The notes beneath the pieces are model-generated. The model was not told the origin of the DNA. It was given only the letters and a program-made list of their open reading frames with translations, and did not search any database. Shown here piece after piece: positions 1,006 to 12,858 of a stretch of DNA of 12,858 nucleotides (position 1 is the first letter of the stretch; every line of letters starts with the position of its first letter). Made by a program: the position numbers and the translations under genes. Origin of the DNA: an uncultured Bacteroidia bacterium (lineage in GTDB: Bacteria; Bacteroidota; Bacteroidia; Bacteroidales; UBA932); the NCBI GenBank assembly GCA_902766985.1, contig CACXFP010000032.1:1-12858 (forward strand), written 5' to 3'.

Positions 1006-2976
1006 ATGGAAAAGAATTATGACATAATAGTTGTCGGTGGAGGACATGCCGGTTGCGAAGCTGCCATGGCGGCTGCCAACCTCGGATCATCCGTCCTTCT
1101 TGTTTCTCCGGATATGCTCGGCTTTGCCAGGATGTCCTGTAATCCCGCGGTCGGCGGAATCGCTAAGGGACAGATCGTCCGCGAGATCGATGCCCTCGGC
1201 GGCTATATGGGAATTGTCACCGATGCGTCAACCCTGCAATTCAGGATGCTCAACAAGTCGAAGGGTCCTGCAATGTGGAGCCCCCGCGCCCAGTGTGATA
1301 AAACAGCATTTTCCCTGAACTGGAGAAATATTCTTGAAAGTTGCTCAAAATTAGATATTTACGCGGATTTTTGCACAAAACTTCTCTTTGAGAATTCAAA
1401 AATTGTCGGAGTCTGTACTAATACCGGGGCAATTTTTCATTCTCAAGCGGTTATCCTTACCGTCGGAACCTTCCTTGATGGGATGCTTTTCATAGGGAGG
1501 CACAGTTTTGAAGGCGGACGTATCGGCGAACTTTCATCCCATGGCATAACTGGCCAACTGAAATCTCTTGGCATTTCTTCCGGGAGGATGAAGACCGGCA
1601 CACCTCCTAGGATTGACATTTCTTCAGTCGATACCGATAAACTTGCACTTCAGTTCGGAGACGAATCTCCTGAGAAGTTCTCCTTCCTTCCTTACCTTTC
1701 CCCGGTCCAGTCCGGCACTCCACAGATGCCGTGCTATATCCTTCACACGAATTCCAAGGTACACGATATTCTTCGTTCCGGTTTCTCCGAGTCACCGATG
1801 TTCACCGGAATGATTCATGGAAAGGGTCCGCGTTATTGCCCGAGCATCGAAGACAAGCTGAGGGTTTTCCCTGACAAGGATTCGCACCAGTTGTTCCTTG
1901 AACCAGAAGGGAGACATACCGGAGAGTATTACCTCCAGGGATTTTCTTCGTCCCTTCCGCTTCAGGTACAGCTTGACGCCCTTCATTCTATCGAAGGACT
2001 TGAGGATGCAAAAATATTCAAGCCGGCCTATGCCGTTGAATATGATTACTTTGACCCTTCGCAACTTCGGTCGACGATGGAATCGAAATGCGTTGACAAT
2101 CTGTATCTTGCAGGTCAGATTAACGGTACTACAGGCTACGAGGAAGCTGCGGCTCAGGGTATAATCGCCGGTATAAACGCCCATCTCAAGATTGCTGGAA
2201 AGGGACCTTTTATCCTGCGCAGGGACGAAGCTTATATCGGGGTTCTGATTGATGACCTGATCACGAAGAGTGTTGATGAACCCTACAGGATGTTTACCTC
2301 CAGAGCCGAGTATCGTATCTTGTTGAGGCAGGAAAACGCTGATGCCAGGCTGACATTCAAGTCTCATGAAATCGGACTGGCAGATGATTTCAGGTATGGA
2401 TATACCGTGTCCAAGTATGAAAACATCTCCAATCTATCCAATCTTTGTTATTCGGTAAAGATAAAGGCGGACAAGGTCAATCCGATTCTTGAATCAAAGT
2501 CTTCTGCTTCGGTTGCGGAATCCAGAAAGGTGTCTGATTTTATCGCCCGTCCAGACCTTGGTCTTTCAGACATTATCGATATTGTTCCACGTGGAACAAT
2601 TGAGGACCATTTGGTAAAATTCGATGCAGTAGAGGCTGATCTGAAGGGAAACCTGCCGTATGTTCTTCAGGACAACAAATTCTCTTTTGCCGAAAAGATT
2701 AAAGAGACTTACAGAAAAGAAATAATTGAGGCGGTAGATATTGCTGTCAAATACAGCGGTTATATTGACAGGGAAAAGGATGTTGCGGAAAAGATTCTGC
2801 GCCTGGAGAATGTAAAGATTCCGGAAGACTTTGACTTTGATTCCGTCTCCGGTCTTACGATCGAATGTCGTCAGAAGTTGTTGAGATACCGCCCGACCAC
2901 CATTGCCCAGGCTTCCAGGATATCAGGAGTTTCGCCATCCGACATATCTGTTCTTCTCGTCTATTTTGGAAGATAA
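1006..2976 (+). CDS. mnmG: tRNA uridine-34 5-carboxymethylaminomethyl modification enzyme MnmG (GidA)
   Basis: A 656-residue FAD protein; with MnmE it installs the cmnm5 group on wobble U34 of certain tRNAs. Visible hallmarks: the FAD-binding [10 protein letters not shown] at 11-20; the [16 protein letters not shown] block near 41-56; TGTPPRID near 198; [18 protein letters not shown] near 368-385; [16 protein letters not shown] near 431; and the C-terminal helical domain ending [20 protein letters not shown]. Typical family members are about 620-630 residues, so this is slightly long but complete. It follows ybeY by three bases. A perfect parS site is embedded at codons 526-532 (IVPRGTI), and a second lies just after the stop codon. 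In many bacteria mnmG (gidA) is an origin-proximal gene, which fits those sites. Confidence 0.97.
2581..2600. other. parS: parS centromere site, copy 1 (inside mnmG)
   Basis: ATTGTTCCACGTGGAACAAT is a perfect 20-base palindrome. Its inner 16 bases (2583-2598) equal TGTTCCACGTGGAACA, a known form of the ParB (Spo0J) binding site parS, as in Pseudomonas; the Bacillus form has TTTC/GAAA instead of TTCC/GGAA. It lies in frame in mnmG, encoding Ile-Val-Pro-Arg-Gly-Thr-Ile. ParB loads here and recruits ParA/SMC to segregate the origin region. The sequence identity is seen directly; binding is inferred. Confidence 0.88.
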
Positions 2977-2994
2977 TTGTTCCACGTGGAACAA
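2977..2994. other. parS: parS centromere site, copy 2 (mnmG/ruvA gap)
   Basis: A perfect 18-base palindrome whose core TGTTCCACGTGGAACA (2978-2993) is identical to copy 1. It occupies most of the 38-base gap between the convergent 3' ends of mnmG and ruvA. As the only intergenic copy it is under no coding constraint, and it keeps the full consensus. A terminator role is less likely because there is no GC-rich stem with a loop and the identity to parS is exact. Confidence 0.9.
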
Positions 2995-3014
2995 AATAAC
3001 AGAAAATAGAAGCC

Positions 3015-3602
3015 TTACAGAATCTTGAGGGCTTCTTTTATTATTTCCTCCACAGAGGCTTCTGGGTTTGCTGTCTGAATTGTATGAACCGCCTTGTGGA
3101 CGTTGGGTTTTGAAAATCCCAGCAGAACAAGGGCGGTAACGGCCTCTTCTGCAATAGTTGCCTTTCCTCCGATACTTTCTCCAACAGAAACGCTGCCTTC
3201 CCCTTTTACGATCTTGTCCTTAAGCTCCAGTATGACCCTTTGGGCGCTCTTTGCCCCAATGCCTTTTACGCTTTTAATCTTTGCAATGTTCTCGGATAGG
3301 ATTGCCTCTCGAACTTCGTCAGAACTCATTGAAGAAAGCATCATCCTTGCTGAACCAACACCGATTCCGGAGACGCTGATCAGGAGTCGGAAAATTTCCC
3401 TCTCGTCTTTAGTGTAGAATCCGTAAAACTCTTCGTCATCTTCCCTGAGATGGTGATGGACGTAGATCTTAGCCACTTTTTCATCCTTTACCGCCTCATA
3501 TGTCTGAAGGGAAATCAGCATGCTGTACCCGACTCCGTTGCAATCTATCACGACCTGGGTCGGATTGATTTCAGCAACTTGTCCTTTAATGTAATCTATC
3601 AT
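3015..3602 (-). CDS. ruvA: Holliday junction branch-migration subunit RuvA
   Basis: A 195-residue protein, normal for RuvA (about 190-205). It binds four-way DNA junctions as a tetramer and loads the RuvB helicase. The N-terminal OB fold (MIDYIKGQV to about 62) carries the conserved VHHHLREDDEEFYGF segment at 48-62. Two helix-hairpin-helix motifs follow at about 73-90 (LLISVSGIGVGSARMML) and 108-126 (SVKGIGAKSAQRV). The flexible linker (about 132-150) leads to domain III (AVTALVLLGFSKPNVHKAV), which contacts RuvB. ruvB and ruvC are not in the window, so this is a stand-alone ruvA, as is common in Bacteroidetes. The ATG at 3602 is divergent from sufS and the 3' end converges on mnmG. Confidence 0.96.
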   Translation of the reverse strand: MIDYIKGQVAEINPTQVVIDCNGVGYSMLISLQTYEAVKDEKVAKIYVHHHLREDDEEFYGFYTKDEREIFRLLISVSGIGVGSARMMLSSMSSDEVREAILSENIAKIKSVKGIGAKSAQRVILELKDKIVKGEGSVSVGESIGGKATIAEEAVTALVLLGFSKPNVHKAVHTIQTANPEASVEEIIKEALKIL

Positions 3603-3625
3603 GATCGCGACGTTGTTTCTTTTCC

Positions 3626-3656
3626 CAAAAATAATCTATTTTTAAGTCTTTTAAAA
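3626..3656 (-). promoter_or_regulatory. Putative ruvA promoter
   Basis: On the minus strand TATTTTTG (3633-3626) matches the Bacteroidetes -7 consensus exactly. TTTT (3656-3653), 19 bases upstream, matches three of four -33 bases. The predicted start, near 3620-3622, leaves about 20 bases before the ruvA ATG. The -33 part lies within the AT-rich palindrome TCTTTTAAAAGA (3647-3658). Confidence 0.4.
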
Positions 3657-3666
3657 GATGAATTGT

Positions 3667-3674
3667 TAAATTTG
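3667..3674 (+). promoter_or_regulatory. -7 element of the sufS-sufE-sufT-folK operon
   Basis: TAAATTTG matches TAnnTTTG exactly and lies 20 bases before the sufS ATG. The best -33 candidate is TTTA at 3641-3644 with a 22-base spacer, which is weak. The palindrome TCTTTTAAAAGA (3647-3658) lies between these boxes, where a repressor or activator could act on both this promoter and the divergent ruvA promoter. Confidence 0.35.
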
Positions 3675-3694
3675 CAGTTCACCGGAAAAGAACC

Positions 3695-4918
3695 ATGCAC
3701 GTAGAAGAGTTGAGAAAATGCTTCCCCGGTCTGTCACAGACCGTCTACGGAAAACCGCTTGTCTATTTTGACAATGCGGCTACTTCCATGCGCCCCGTGC
3801 AGGTCATCGACAAATTGAGCAATCTCTCACTGCTTAAGAATTCCAACATACACCGGGCTGTCCACGCCCTTGCCGCCGAGGCAACGGAAGAGTATGAAAG
3901 AACCAGGGAATACGTACGCGCATACCTGAATGCTGCCGGCCGGGAGGAAATCGTGTTCACTTCCGGGACAACTGCCGCGATTAATCTTGTGGCTTTCTGT
4001 TTCGGCGAAGCTTTTATCGAAGAAGGGGACGAGATAATAGTTTCAGAGGAGGAGCATCATTCCAACATTGTTCCCTGGCAGATGATGTGTCAGAGGAAAG
4101 GGGCGACACTCAAGGTGCTTCCTGTTGATGACGAAGGCCATCTCAGGCTTGATGTCCTGAAAGGAATCCTTACTCCCAGGACGAAACTTCTTGCTGTTGC
4201 CCAGGTATCCAACACACTTGGAATAGAAAACCCCATAAAAGAAATTGTAAATATCTGTCATTCAAAGAATTGTCTTGTGTTGACAGACGGGGCCCAGGGA
4301 ATCGTCCACACAGGTATCGATGTACAGGATGCCGGCTGCGATTTCTATGTTTTTTCGGGACACAAGATATACGGAGCTACCGGAACAGGAGTCCTTTATG
4401 GCAAAAAAGAACTCCTTGAGAAAATGCCGCCGTACATGGGCGGAGGGGAAATGATTGCGACTGTAAAATTCACCGGTACTACCTATGCACCGTTGCCTGG
4501 AAAGTTCGAGGCCGGGACACAGAATATCAATGCAATTCCGACCCTGGTGCCAGCTCTGGAAATGGCGAAACAAATGAGCGACAACGAATTGGTCCGATAT
4601 GGGAAGGGTATTTCCGATTATCTTTACCAGGCATTGTCGTCGAATTCCAGAATCCGTCTTTTCGGTGTTCCACGTGGAGCAGAAAAGAAAATACCCCTGT
4701 TTTCTTTCACTGTAGAAGGGGTGCACCATGAGGACCTTGCGCTGATTCTGGACAAAATGGGAATAGCGGTCCGTTCCGGGCAGATGTGTGCTGAACCCAT
4801 GATGGACAGGTTCGGGGTGACGGGAATGCTGCGCGCGTCCCTTGCTCCGTATAATACGATGGAGGAGGCCGAGAGTTTCATAAAATCGCTTGAAAAAGCG
4901 ATAGATATGCTTTTGTAG
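3695..4918 (+). CDS. sufS: Cysteine desulfurase SufS (class V aminotransferase fold)
   Basis: A 407-residue PLP enzyme that takes sulfur from L-cysteine as an enzyme persulfide for Fe-S cluster assembly. Visible features: the N-terminal YFDNAATSMRPVQVID (24-39); the cofactor-stacking His in EEEHHSNIVPWQ (118-129); the PLP-phosphate/ring residues around LTDGAQ (196-201); the Schiff-base lysine K224 in SGHKIYGATGTG; and the catalytic Cys365 in RSGQMCAEP, equivalent to the RTGHHCAMP loop of E. coli SufS. The short loop around the cysteine marks it as group II (SufS) rather than IscS/NifS. It is the first gene of a compact operon with sufE next. A near-perfect parS lies at 4666-4681. The ATG has only a weak purine stretch before it. 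Confidence 0.96.
   Translation: MHVEELRKCFPGLSQTVYGKPLVYFDNAATSMRPVQVIDKLSNLSLLKNSNIHRAVHALAAEATEEYERTREYVRAYLNAAGREEIVFTSGTTAAINLVAFCFGEAFIEEGDEIIVSEEEHHSNIVPWQMMCQRKGATLKVLPVDDEGHLRLDVLKGILTPRTKLLAVAQVSNTLGIENPIKEIVNICHSKNCLVLTDGAQGIVHTGIDVQDAGCDFYVFSGHKIYGATGTGVLYGKKELLEKMPPYMGGGEMIATVKFTGTTYAPLPGKFEAGTQNINAIPTLVPALEMAKQMSDNELVRYGKGISDYLYQALSSNSRIRLFGVPRGAEKKIPLFSFTVEGVHHEDLALILDKMGIAVRSGQMCAEPMMDRFGVTGMLRASLAPYNTMEEAESFIKSLEKAIDMLL
4666..4681. other. parS: parS-like site, copy 3 (inside sufS, one mismatch)
   Basis: TGTTCCACGTGGAGCA differs from the two perfect copies only at position 14 (A to G). It is in frame in sufS and encodes Val-Pro-Arg-Gly-Ala, the same reading as the copy in mnmG. 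The central CACGTG core and 15 of 16 bases are intact, so ParB binding is plausible but perhaps weaker. Confidence 0.75.
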
Positions 4919-7807: not shown

Positions 7808-8590
7808 CTACCTGTCGAGACATTCGACAAAGAAATCCTTGTCTGGCGCCTGTGAATCCGCAATCCGGTTCTTAAGGCGCCAGATCCTGTTATAGACGAT
7901 GCTCTTGTCCTTTTCCAGGATGGTGGATATGGTGGTGCTGGAGAATCCGGCCGCAGCATAGGTGAACAGCCGGATATTGTCTTCCGAAAGATCCGGGAGT
8001 TGCTCCCTGAGACGGGAAACGACGTTGTTCTTGTTCCTGTCGAGCATCAGTTCCAGTCCCTTTCTGGAAGAATCGCTGCGGAGCTCCCCGATGACGTCCT
8101 TGACCTCTTTTAGGATCTTCGGCTGGAGGTTCTCTGTACCTTCATAGACATAATACTGTTCGCACAGGCGCTCCAGGACGTCGAATTTGGCTATTGAGAG
8201 ATGTTTTTCGGAAGGAAGCCTCCGCGAAGCCGCCTGAAGCTTTGTCTGGAGGTCCTCGGCGATTTCCATGTACTTTTCCGCCTCGGCCTTTTCTTCCTTA
8301 AGCTTCCTTTCCGCCTGGATCTTCATCACCCGGAAATACCAGAACAGGGTTGCCAGGATGGCCGTGAAAAGCAGCACGAGGGCCCAGAACCTCATTCTGT
8401 CCACCTTCTGCTGCTCCTCGATAAGCGCCGAATAGGCCTTCAGCGCAGAGACGTCCCCCTGCTCCCAAGCCTGTTCGATTTCCTCTTTGAGGTTTCCGTA
8501 CCTTTTCTGGAACGAGCCGCTTCCCGTGCCGGAAGAACATCCGGCCAGGACGATCAGGAAGGAGACGAGTATGGGCAGGAAACGTTTCAT
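7808..8590 (-). CDS. Lipoprotein with one membrane segment, coiled coil and C-terminal HTH (TPR-less regulator)
   Basis: A 260-residue protein starting at the ATG at 8590; a TTG lies one codon upstream, but the ATG gives a proper lipoprotein signal (MKRFLPILVSFLIVLAGCSS, lipobox Cys18). After a short periplasmic stretch (19-66) comes a strong membrane segment (about 67-87), then a highly charged predicted coiled coil (88-125). The C-terminal LSEDNIRLFTYAAAGFSSTTIS (201-222) with DKSIVYNRIWRLKNRI resembles the LuxR-like helix-turn-helix at the end of Bacteroidetes TPR regulators (pattern NDIRLxxLxxLxxSxKEI). Those proteins have several periplasmic TPRs, absent here, so this is a minimal version. 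I infer a membrane-tethered transcriptional regulator; the signal sensed and the targets are unknown. The HTH call is by pattern only. Confidence 0.75.
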   Translation of the reverse strand: MKRFLPILVSFLIVLAGCSSGTGSGSFQKRYGNLKEEIEQAWEQGDVSALKAYSALIEEQQKVDRMRFWALVLLFTAILATLFWYFRVMKIQAERKLKEEKAEAEKYMEIAEDLQTKLQAASRRLPSEKHLSIAKFDVLERLCEQYYVYEGTENLQPKILKEVKDVIGELRSDSSRKGLELMLDRNKNNVVSRLREQLPDLSEDNIRLFTYAAAGFSSTTISTILEKDKSIVYNRIWRLKNRIADSQAPDKDFFVECLDR

Positions 8591-8647
8591 CAACCCAAAA
8601 ATAACAATAAAAGATTAAGAAAAAACCGGAGGTGAGAGAATTTAAGA

Positions 8648-10847: not shown

Positions 10848-11675
10848 CTACTGCTCGTCGACGGAGTCGTCTCCGTCGGGGTAGTAGTAATGCCTCATGT
10901 CGCGGCCGAAGAAATTGTTTTCAGCGTTCCTGTAGAAGTCGCGATGCTTGGCGTAGAAGCCGTTCTCGGAATTGTTCGAGGCGGCTTCCGCTATTATGCG
11001 GTTCCTCGTGTGGACGAACATTCTCCAGCAGAACCAGAACAGGGCCAGGGTAAGGATGGTGGACCAGAATACAGACATGCTTTCAAGCCCGCTCGCAAAG
11101 CAGATGGTATCGTAGATGCCGTGAAGGAGGACGGGGTAGGCCCACATCTTCCAGGCAGCACCCCTCTTCTCCTCGGCATTCCAGGAAAAATGCTGCTTCG
11201 AATAATAGTAGCCCATCACTATTGCAAAGGCGAAATGGCCGGGAACGGCAAGGAAGGCCCTGGAGACTGCCACCTGGAAGAAGCTGAAACCGCTGCTCAA
11301 GAGATAAAGGAGATTCTCAAGCGTAGCGAAACCAAGACCTACGGCCGCTGCATACACCAGTCCGTCATATCTTTCATCAAAGTCCTTGCAATGGCGCAGG
11401 AGCAGCCAGAGCATGATGAGCTTCGCCGTCTCCTCAGGAATCGCAGCACCGAAAAACGCGGTTTTGGCCGCCTCTATGAGTGAAGAAGGATTGTTTGTGA
11501 AAACCCCCATCACCATCATAGGGCCGGAGAATACTGAAGAGACAAGAGTGGCAAGAGCCCCGAAAAAGAATCCCTTCATGACCAGGTTGCCGGGTTCTGG
11601 GGAGATATCCTTGGAATAAACGAACCAGAAAAGGACAATGGCCGGCAGGGCGGCTGCGCAAAAAATCAGTAGCAT
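10848..11675 (-). CDS. PrsW-family intramembrane metalloprotease
   Basis: A 275-residue multi-pass membrane protein. It carries the three PrsW motifs: EExxK as E81-E82-T-A-K85 in AAIPEETAKLI; FxxxE as F116ATLE120 in GLGFATLENLLYLL; and HxxxD as H185GIYD189, plus the conserved PGH (145-147). About seven hydrophobic stretches can be seen between residues 1 and 222. In Bacillus, PrsW cuts the anti-sigma factor RsiW; here the substrate is unknown. After the last membrane helix there is a polar tail (about 225-275) rich in Asn, Tyr, Arg and Asp that ends DGDDSVDEQ. The ATG at 11675 follows the dnaE stop by 19 bases on the same strand, so the two are probably co-transcribed. Confidence 0.88.
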   Translation of the reverse strand: MLLIFCAAALPAIVLFWFVYSKDISPEPGNLVMKGFFFGALATLVSSVFSGPMMVMGVFTNNPSSLIEAAKTAFFGAAIPEETAKLIMLWLLLRHCKDFDERYDGLVYAAAVGLGFATLENLLYLLSSGFSFFQVAVSRAFLAVPGHFAFAIVMGYYYSKQHFSWNAEEKRGAAWKMWAYPVLLHGIYDTICFASGLESMSVFWSTILTLALFWFCWRMFVHTRNRIIAEAASNNSENGFYAKHRDFYRNAENNFFGRDMRHYYYPDGDDSVDEQ

Positions 11676-11694: not shown

Positions 11695-12858
11695 TCAAAG
11701 TTTCTTTTCAACCTGCCAGGTGACACCGAGAGCGTCGAGGTCATAGCAGAAATCGGTCGAAACTGCGACGGTAAACTTATGTGAAACGAATTCAACGCGG
11801 TATTTCGTCTTAGGGTCATAGAGGAACATTGTCAGGGGGATGTTTCCCTTGTTCCGCTTAAGCAGCGTCACGAGTTTCTTCCGGAACTCTTCGGTCAGCA
11901 TCGGGGTGGTGACGTTTATCGCGAATCCTTTGACCATTGTGTCAGCTACATTGCCCAGAAGGATTATCTTCTGGATCCTGAATCCGTAAGGCGGTTTTGT
12001 CGCCGGCTTTTCGGCATCCTGCTTGGTGTAGAAATCCCTCCGCTTGATCTCTCCCTCGATGTACAGGGCGGTCTTTTCCTGCATGAAGCTCATGTAGTTT
12101 TCCATGTCCTTTCCGAACAGGGGGAATTCCGCGCTGCCGGAGAAATCCTCAATAGTGGCGACAGCCATCGGCCTTCCCGTCCTTGTCGTCTTCGCCTTGT
12201 AGGATGTCACAAGTCCGGCAAGGGCTACTTTCCTGGGCTTGTCGGTGGCGTCACATTCCGCCACGGCCTCGCTGAGGGAAGCCATCTGGCAGCTTGTAAA
12301 GTTCTCTATCTCAAAGGAATACTTGTCGAGAGGATGGGAAGAAAGGTACATTCCCACGAATTCCTTTTCCTGCTGCAGCAGGGCCATCTCGTCTTCCTCG
12401 CCGGTGAAGGATGGAATTTCGGGTCGTACAGGCTTGAACTCCTCGCTGTCGCCGAACAGGGACACGGCTTCGGATTCCTTGTCCTGCTTGTACAGGTCGG
12501 CATACCTTACCAGTTCGTCGATGAACGGTTCCCCGCTCTTTCCCGGCATGAAATACTGGGACCTCTTCAAGCCGAAGGAATCGAAGGCTCCGGCATAGAC
12601 AAGGCATTCCACGGCCTTCCTTCCCATGGTGACGGGGATCCTTTCCATGAAATCGAAGACATCCTTATATGGGCCATTGGCGTTCCTTTCAGAGACGATT
12701 GCATCAACTATGTTCGCGCCGAAACTCTTGATGCCTCCGAGGCCGAAACGGATGTTTCCCTCCCTGTTTACGCTGAAATGGGAGTCACTCTCGTTCACGT
12801 CAGGGTTCAGGACCTTGATCCTTCCTTTGCGGCAGTCGTCCATTATCTCCTTGATCTC
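11695..12858 (-). CDS. dnaE: DNA polymerase III alpha subunit, C-terminal part (N-terminus beyond window)
   Basis: The frame is open through the right edge, giving the last 387 residues of replicative polymerase DnaE (normally about 1150-1280). The visible part starts with EIKEIMDDCRKGRIKVLNPDVNES, followed by the tandem helix-hairpin-helix region (FGLGGIKSFGANIVDAIV and GRKAVECLVYAGAFDSFG). The FVGMYLSSHPLDKY motif comes next. Then the OB-fold domain (VALAGLVTSYKAKTTRTGRPMAVATIEDFSGSAEFPLF, here in shortened view as positions 207-244 of the partial chain) and a C-terminal domain that in the family contacts the beta clamp and tau. The palm with catalytic Asp residues lies outside the window. 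The Met at 12843 is internal, not a start. prsW follows in the same direction. Confidence 0.95.
   Translation of the reverse strand, partial: EIKEIMDDCRKGRIKVLNPDVNESDSHFSVNREGNIRFGLGGIKSFGANIVDAIVSERNANGPYKDVFDFMERIPVTMGRKAVECLVYAGAFDSFGLKRSQYFMPGKSGEPFIDELVRYADLYKQDKESEAVSLFGDSEEFKPVRPEIPSFTGEEDEMALLQQEKEFVGMYLSSHPLDKYSFEIENFTSCQMASLSEAVAECDATDKPRKVALAGLVTSYKAKTTRTGRPMAVATIEDFSGSAEFPLFGKDMENYMSFMQEKTALYIEGEIKRRDFYTKQDAEKPATKPPYGFRIQKIILLGNVADTMVKGFAINVTTPMLTEEFRKKLVTLLKRNKGNIPLTMFLYDPKTKYRVEFVSHKFTVAVSTDFCYDLDALGVTWQVEKKL

Follow-up and report, generated by a model that had tools for sequence, protein, structure and literature searches.

The window analysed here is a stretch of 12,858 nucleotides (positions 1 to 12,858 of contig CACXFP010000032.1, assembly GCA_902766985.1) from an uncultured member of the Bacteroidia (Bacteroidales; family UBA932). 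Within 2.1 kb, across the genes mnmG, ruvA, and sufS, it carries three copies of a 16-bp palindrome that are predicted to be parS sites, the sequences bound by the partitioning protein ParB. The genes and features of this segment are the following:

1006–2976, plus strand: mnmG (gidA), matching TIGR00136 with 778.9 bits (cut-off 524.85)
2581–2718, plus strand: MnmG residues 526–571, unaligned against the solved GidA chain 3cp8_A, with site 1 at the start
2583–2598, strand not given: putative parS site 1, TGTTCCACGTGGAACA, a perfect 16-bp palindrome within mnmG, reading (I)VPRGT at MnmG residues 527–531
2978–2993, strand not given: putative parS site 2, a perfect TGTTCCACGTGGAACA lying between the convergent genes mnmG and ruvA, 1 base past the mnmG stop codon
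3015–3602, minus strand: ruvA, between sites 2 and 3, matching TIGR00084 with 198.5 bits (cut-off 85)
3695–4918, plus strand: sufS, holding site 3, matching TIGR01979 with 494.8 bits (cut-off 475.1)
4666–4681, strand not given: putative parS site 3, TGTTCCACGTGGAGCA, with one mismatch (A to G at base 14), within sufS, reading (G)VPRGA
4667–4675, plus strand: three-residue insertion VPR of SufS relative to the solved chain 4w91_A, created by site 3

A search of the window for TGTTCCACGTGGAACA with up to three mismatches returned sites 1, 2, and 3 only, which bears out the original prediction of two perfect copies and one copy with a single mismatch at these positions. Dinucleotide shuffles of the window (n = 200) gave a mean of 0.04 matches and a maximum of 1 at the same threshold, and from base composition 3e-6 exact copies are expected per window and 4e-4 per 1.72 Mb, the size of the source genome, which is a draft of 297 contigs and 88.5% completeness. 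The genome-wide scan with up to two mismatches that had been proposed as a check likewise recovered sites 1–3 alone, all in one place inside 2.1 kb, in a genome that also contains parB; since the reversed pattern yielded two forward matches in the draft at this threshold, the genome-wide background is not zero. Compared with the parS consensus TGTTTCACGTGAAACA (PMC10197239; this and all other papers are cited for those parts of their text that were available), the perfect copies depart at the two known variable bases, and all three sites carry G at base 1 and A at base 6.

Predicted ParA and ParB proteins of the chromosomal type are encoded in the same genome. On contig C41 a ParA-type ATPase of 260 amino acids directly precedes parB, its end overlapping the parB start; it matches ParA, MinD, and RepA models, none of which exceeds its cut-off among the 25 matches listed. 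The parB reading frame exits the end of C41 and its helix-turn-helix (HTH) part opens contig C292. TIGR00180 is above cut-off on both contigs, the ParB pieces contain the Pfam domains ParB_N and HTH_ParB, and among solved structures the HTH piece matches chains of ParB, Spo0J, and Noc. With the NCBIfam Noc model the two pieces score 136.7 and 120.6 bits, short of the cut-off of 315. The parB reading frame on C41 also contains the motif GERRYKA, which we take to be the CTP motif. ParB was detected in 110 of the 119 genomes of family UBA932, and the parS-type specificity residues R173 and G201 are present in the HTH part of the source genome as well as in all 49 aligned ParBs of the family; both residues are absolutely conserved among extant ParB orthologs (PMC7383237).

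With ParA and ParB encoded and the sites fitting the consensus, the three palindromes are, judging from sequence, almost certainly parS sites, and the claim that they represent a parS variant holds. We assign a probability of about 0.92 to the reading that they belong to the organism's own chromosomal ParABS system, of which they would be the sole detected centromere, and that they work in the usual manner. For binding, clamp loading, sliding, and segregation we infer the following from established ParB work: CTP-bound ParB dimers would load at each site and then slide into the flanking DNA of mnmG, ruvA, and sufS, and ParA would move the loaded ParB-DNA apart, making the freshly replicated origin region the first to separate.

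The location of the sites at mnmG recurs among relatives; all locus counts refer to subsets of the site-bearing genomes, namely 30 loci fetched of 81 for the order, 29 of 82 for the family, and 29 of 221 for the phylum. A site with at most one mismatch occurs in 81 of 149 Bacteroidales genomes, with mnmG inside the fetched 3 kb around it at 27/30 loci. Family UBA932 has the site in 82 of 119 genomes and mnmG beside it at 26/29 loci, the three loci without mnmG being situated at ruvA or sufS. Across the Bacteroidota, exact TGTTYCACGTGRAACA is found in 221 of 296 genomes and mnmG is beside it at 23 of the 29 newly fetched loci, while the remaining six have other neighbors, for example threonine synthase and proline racemase. 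In many relatives the site lies within approximately 25 bases of the mnmG 3′ end. A looser pattern, tried on 18 of the 68 order genomes that lacked the site (17 loci fetched), matched in 13 of them, 12 of which have a CACGTG-centred site beside mnmG. Five looser-pattern loci without mnmG have other centres, as expected by chance, and because the 18 genomes gave 25 forward matches vs. 8 for the reversed pattern, part of the looser matches must be chance. One genome (G109) has a CACGTG-centred looser match about 178 kb from its mnmG site, at a locus that was not fetched.

Loci were also picked solely by similarity to MnmG, without regard to parS; of the 34 from Bacteroidota, 29 had a site within one mismatch of TGTTYCACGTGRAACA, usually in mnmG or immediately to either side of it, or further towards sufS. 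Outside this phylum a parS-like site was present at 7 of 40 mnmG loci, and at least one site was at mnmG in all seven. The link therefore either predates the Bacteroidota or is not exclusive to them, and the parS-mnmG pairing is probably older than the phylum. Four alphaproteobacterial loci (L124, L125, L127, L128) have mnmG closely flanked by parS-like sites on both sides, like many Flavobacteriales. At another locus (L070, 2536–2551) a copy of TGTTCCACGGGGAACA lies approximately 9.5 kb ahead of the mnmG end, far from the other sites of that locus. No description of parS at mnmG in Bacteroidota was found in the literature searched, most subscription papers being outside its reach.

The original prediction had also placed the window near the replication origin, to be checked by GC skew and by the distance to dnaA. 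The draft is too fragmented for its own skew to be usable; three single-contig genomes of the family (G151, G157, and G223, in this order below) were each sampled in 20 intervals of 20 kb. They share the gene order ybeY-mnmG, followed a few kb on by ruvA and sufS; in G157 this order spans the contig end and holds if the contig is circular. In these genomes GC skew tends to be negative to one side of parS and positive to the other, though individual intervals deviate. The mean skew difference for a split at parS is 0.1375, 0.0592, and 0.0670 (permutation p = 0.0008, 0.012, and 0.020), whereas a split at dnaA instead gives -0.052, -0.022, and 0.002. Measured from parS as a share of the chromosome, the best split is at 4.8, 0, and 2.1%, dnaA at 27.4, 38.6, and 33.3%, and parB at 21.8, 25.2, and 23.1%. 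The distance between parB and parS is curiously constant (22–25%) in the three genomes.

These data fit published origin assignments. In a Hi-C study covering 12 strains from the gut, including two Bacteroidetes, origins were set by parS clusters and GC skew with supporting read coverage; the study cautions against dnaA as a marker and points out that the origin is not always located there (PMC10197239). In the Flavobacteriaceae, Ori-Finder and GC skew led to mnmG being named the origin in Mariniflexile litorale, where dnaA is misaligned with the skew (PMC11278836), and in Algorimicrobium (PMC12843772). The parS locus most likely marks the region where chromosome replication starts, with dnaA far off, and parS with mnmG looks like the core that was kept when dnaA and parAB left an old origin neighborhood. 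Of the predicted origin proximity, the part that stands is the skew switch at or near the parS locus in three complete relatives; the window itself, however, contains no DnaA-box cluster, and the distance to dnaA proved a misleading yardstick, dnaA being 27–39% of the chromosome away. With four DnaA-box matches at up to one mismatch vs. 6.6 expected, no oriC was placed in the window, and other DnaA-box patterns revealed no cluster in the Bacteroidales loci either. Five Chryseobacterium-type loci (L080, L082, L083, L087, L136; around 14360–14760) have two to four DnaA boxes about 2.5–2.9 kb past mnmG, which form a candidate oriC.

Several observations weigh against our interpretation. The source genome is a fragmented draft in which further sites may be missed. 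mnmG is absent within 1.5 kb of the site in 6/29 phylum, 3/30 order, and 3/29 family loci. No site at one mismatch was found in 68 of the 149 order genomes, and of the 18 examined with the looser pattern five had no match and one matched only away from mnmG. Likewise, 5 of the 34 Bacteroidota loci picked by MnmG similarity lack a site at one mismatch. The best skew split is off parS in G151 (4.8%) and G223 (2.1%), at a resolution of 20 intervals per genome, and parB lies 22–25% of the chromosome away, contrary to the usual origin-linked layout. Finally, one figure legend in PMC11278836 swaps the labels of oriC and ter.

It would accord with part of this evidence if the sites were parS but the locus were not the origin region in this organism: the window has no DnaA-box cluster, dnaA and parB are elsewhere in the relatives, and the skew of the draft cannot be read. 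We nevertheless regard this as improbable, because the skew changes sign at or near parS in all three single-contig genomes of the family, because a split at dnaA gives values around zero or below, and because the origins in PMC10197239 were placed by the same combination of parS and skew with support from read coverage. Even less probable is that the palindromes represent RNA stem-loops or terminators, or the operator of a local regulator. Site 2 does lie in the short gap between mnmG and ruvA, and operators may also be 16-bp palindromes. However, the other sites lie in coding sequence and, in relatives, also upstream of mnmG; the plus strand shows no T-run after site 2; the would-be loop CACGTG is kept in 27/27 mnmG-linked sites of the order (a set chosen at up to one mismatch); and the draft contains only three sites and encodes ParB.

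Two of the three putative parS sites are embedded in genes. Sites 1 and 3 share a reading frame and the peptide VPRG(T/A). Codon choice was compared in 18 Bacteroidales MnmG sequences (17 fetched plus that of the window), of which 14 read VP(R/H)GT at the site region, while the peptide is missing at L075, L076, L130, and L137. At the site, CCA is used in 13/14 cases vs. 13.6% in the remainder of the same genes and CGT in 13/13 vs. 16.9%; GTT (14/14 vs. 34%), GGA (14/14 vs. 36%), and ACA (10/14 vs. 18%) behave in the same way, although binomial p values for such counts treat related species as independent. The codons at the coding sites are, to judge from these counts, under selection for the letters of parS. 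The MnmG segment holding site 1, which falls between the two portions that align with GidA chain 3cp8_A, has 46 residues compared with 16 in that chain, with the peptide at its start, and the segment varies in length among relatives. Among 15 other loci with sufS, four have a site at the same SufS codons, of which one is perfect and three are degraded. A need for VPRG(T/A) in both MnmG and SufS, which the DNA identity would merely follow, might be suggested by two of three sites being coding in one frame for one peptide, but it is the least credible alternative of all, since site 2 lies between genes, codons fixed at the site (CCA 13/14, CGT 13/13) are free elsewhere in the genes, the closest solved relatives have no counterpart to the segments containing the peptide, and other families have their sites before or after mnmG. 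With codons fixed and the peptides in such segments, the DNA element seems instead to have written its peptide into two unrelated enzymes at tolerant places.

Within family UBA932 the parS sites themselves have drifted. The CACGTG core is changed at 9/29 family loci, whereas it is unchanged at all 27 mnmG-linked loci of the rest of the order, a count that drops three loci without mnmG, one of them (L007) with a changed core; an alternative family count of 11/35 takes in six loci from a pattern admitting variants only. Most changes fall on base 6 of a single half-site, giving CACGAG, CACGGG, or their reverses. The variant-core loci are L036–L038, L040, L041, L047, L052, L063, L139, and L140 (CACGAG, CACGGG, CCCGTG, CTCGAG), and in four genomes (G177, G207, G244, G254) both sites share the same core change. 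The ParBs of the family have K204 in 34/49 and K172 (vs. S172) in 43/49 sequences, while R at position 204 is otherwise kept in ParB and Noc, and the residue facing base 6 in ParB, G201, makes no base-specific contact (PMC7383237). A residue tracking CACGAG or CACGGG was expected, and none was seen; K204 occurs with both CACGTG and variant cores, and no covariation is claimed. The labels for this comparison were assigned by hand, and of the 50 genomes seven had no site, one was unknown, and four were labeled by count only. A first residue scan accepted only R/K at 173 and G/A at 201, with 4/50 loci remaining unparsed; the count from the alignment repeats it without this bias.

The mnmG-ruvA-sufS segment had additionally been proposed as a loading zone for SMC. 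The model SMC_prok_B was above cut-off in 0/15 Bacteroidales genomes including the source, weak matches falling far below it, as compared with 10/14 controls. ScpB was found in 0/15 of these genomes and 9/14 controls, in a search that covered neither ScpA nor condensins of the MukB/MksB type and included a source genome of 88.5% completeness. No known condensin was found in the two Bacteroidetes of the Hi-C study either (PMC10197239). Because both SMC_prok_B and ScpB are at 0/15, canonical SMC-ScpAB loading at parS is not supported by these genomes, and this part of the original prediction does not hold in the form proposed. Since ParB and parS are kept where SMC-ScpB is undetectable, these bacteria would make a natural setting for separating the roles of ParB in segregation and in condensin loading.

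A wider picture, which we offer tentatively and think somewhat less likely to be right than wrong, would combine these features. mnmG might be the ancestral centromere address of the Bacteroidota, from which dnaA and parAB have gone; ParB might act there without SMC-ScpAB, with another condensin or none; in UBA932 the need for the DNA element might have been written into the VPRGT insertions of MnmG and SufS; and ParB might have become tolerant at base 6, allowing lopsided sites such as TGTTCCACGAGGAACA, some of them halfway to the Noc type. On the practical side, mnmG together with parS provides a means of marking the origin in Bacteroidota drafts, in which dnaA may be misleading, and origin placement affects coverage-based estimates of growth rate, genome rotation, and the reading of Hi-C data. 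The embedded sites also give a clear example of how a centromere can mould the sequence of proteins.

Elsewhere in the window four further reading frames, all on the minus strand, were inspected. By eye, 3–473 encodes the N-terminal part of a TonB-like protein, and 7808–8593 a lipoprotein of 261 amino acids with a membrane segment. Neither matches Pfam above cut-off, and the second has no NCBIfam match. According to Pfam, 10848–11675 encodes a PrsW-type membrane protease, and 11695–12843, near the contig end, contains helix-hairpin-helix and OB-fold domains and is taken as the C-terminal part of DnaE.

Three known systems invite comparison. Firstly, Noc and its binding site (NBS) resemble the present system in that Noc is a related HTH protein and one half of some family sites has C at base 6. 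NBS and parS differ at bases 1 and 6 (PMC7383237), however, and the organism's own ParB keeps R173 and G201, its sites keep G at base 1, and all of them are in one place; Q173 with R201 was not found in this ParB, nor A1 with C6 in its sites. Secondly, the origins of Flavobacteriaceae are similar insofar as mnmG marks the skew-based origin and dnaA does not fit the skew in one of them (PMC11278836) and mnmG is named as the origin in the other (PMC12843772), but these organisms belong to another order, and the text retrieved from these papers is silent on ParB sites. Thirdly, there are the ParABS systems of Bacillus subtilis (Spo0J), Caulobacter, and Pseudomonas aeruginosa, the last with ten putative parS sites, four of which are near oriC (PMC4368675). 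The system studied here differs from them in that parB and dnaA lie 22–25% and 27–39% of the chromosome from parS, respectively, in the three complete relatives, in that no canonical SMC or ScpB was found, and in being anchored at mnmG. The phylum-wide mnmG anchoring, the coding-embedded sites, and the base-6 drift of UBA932 appear to be new, with no precedent found in the searched literature. In its 16-bp palindrome centred on CACGTG, its few copies clustered near the skew switch, and its pairing with ParA and ParB, the system nevertheless resembles these ParABS systems, and the window holds a real, origin-marking parS cluster of this known kind.

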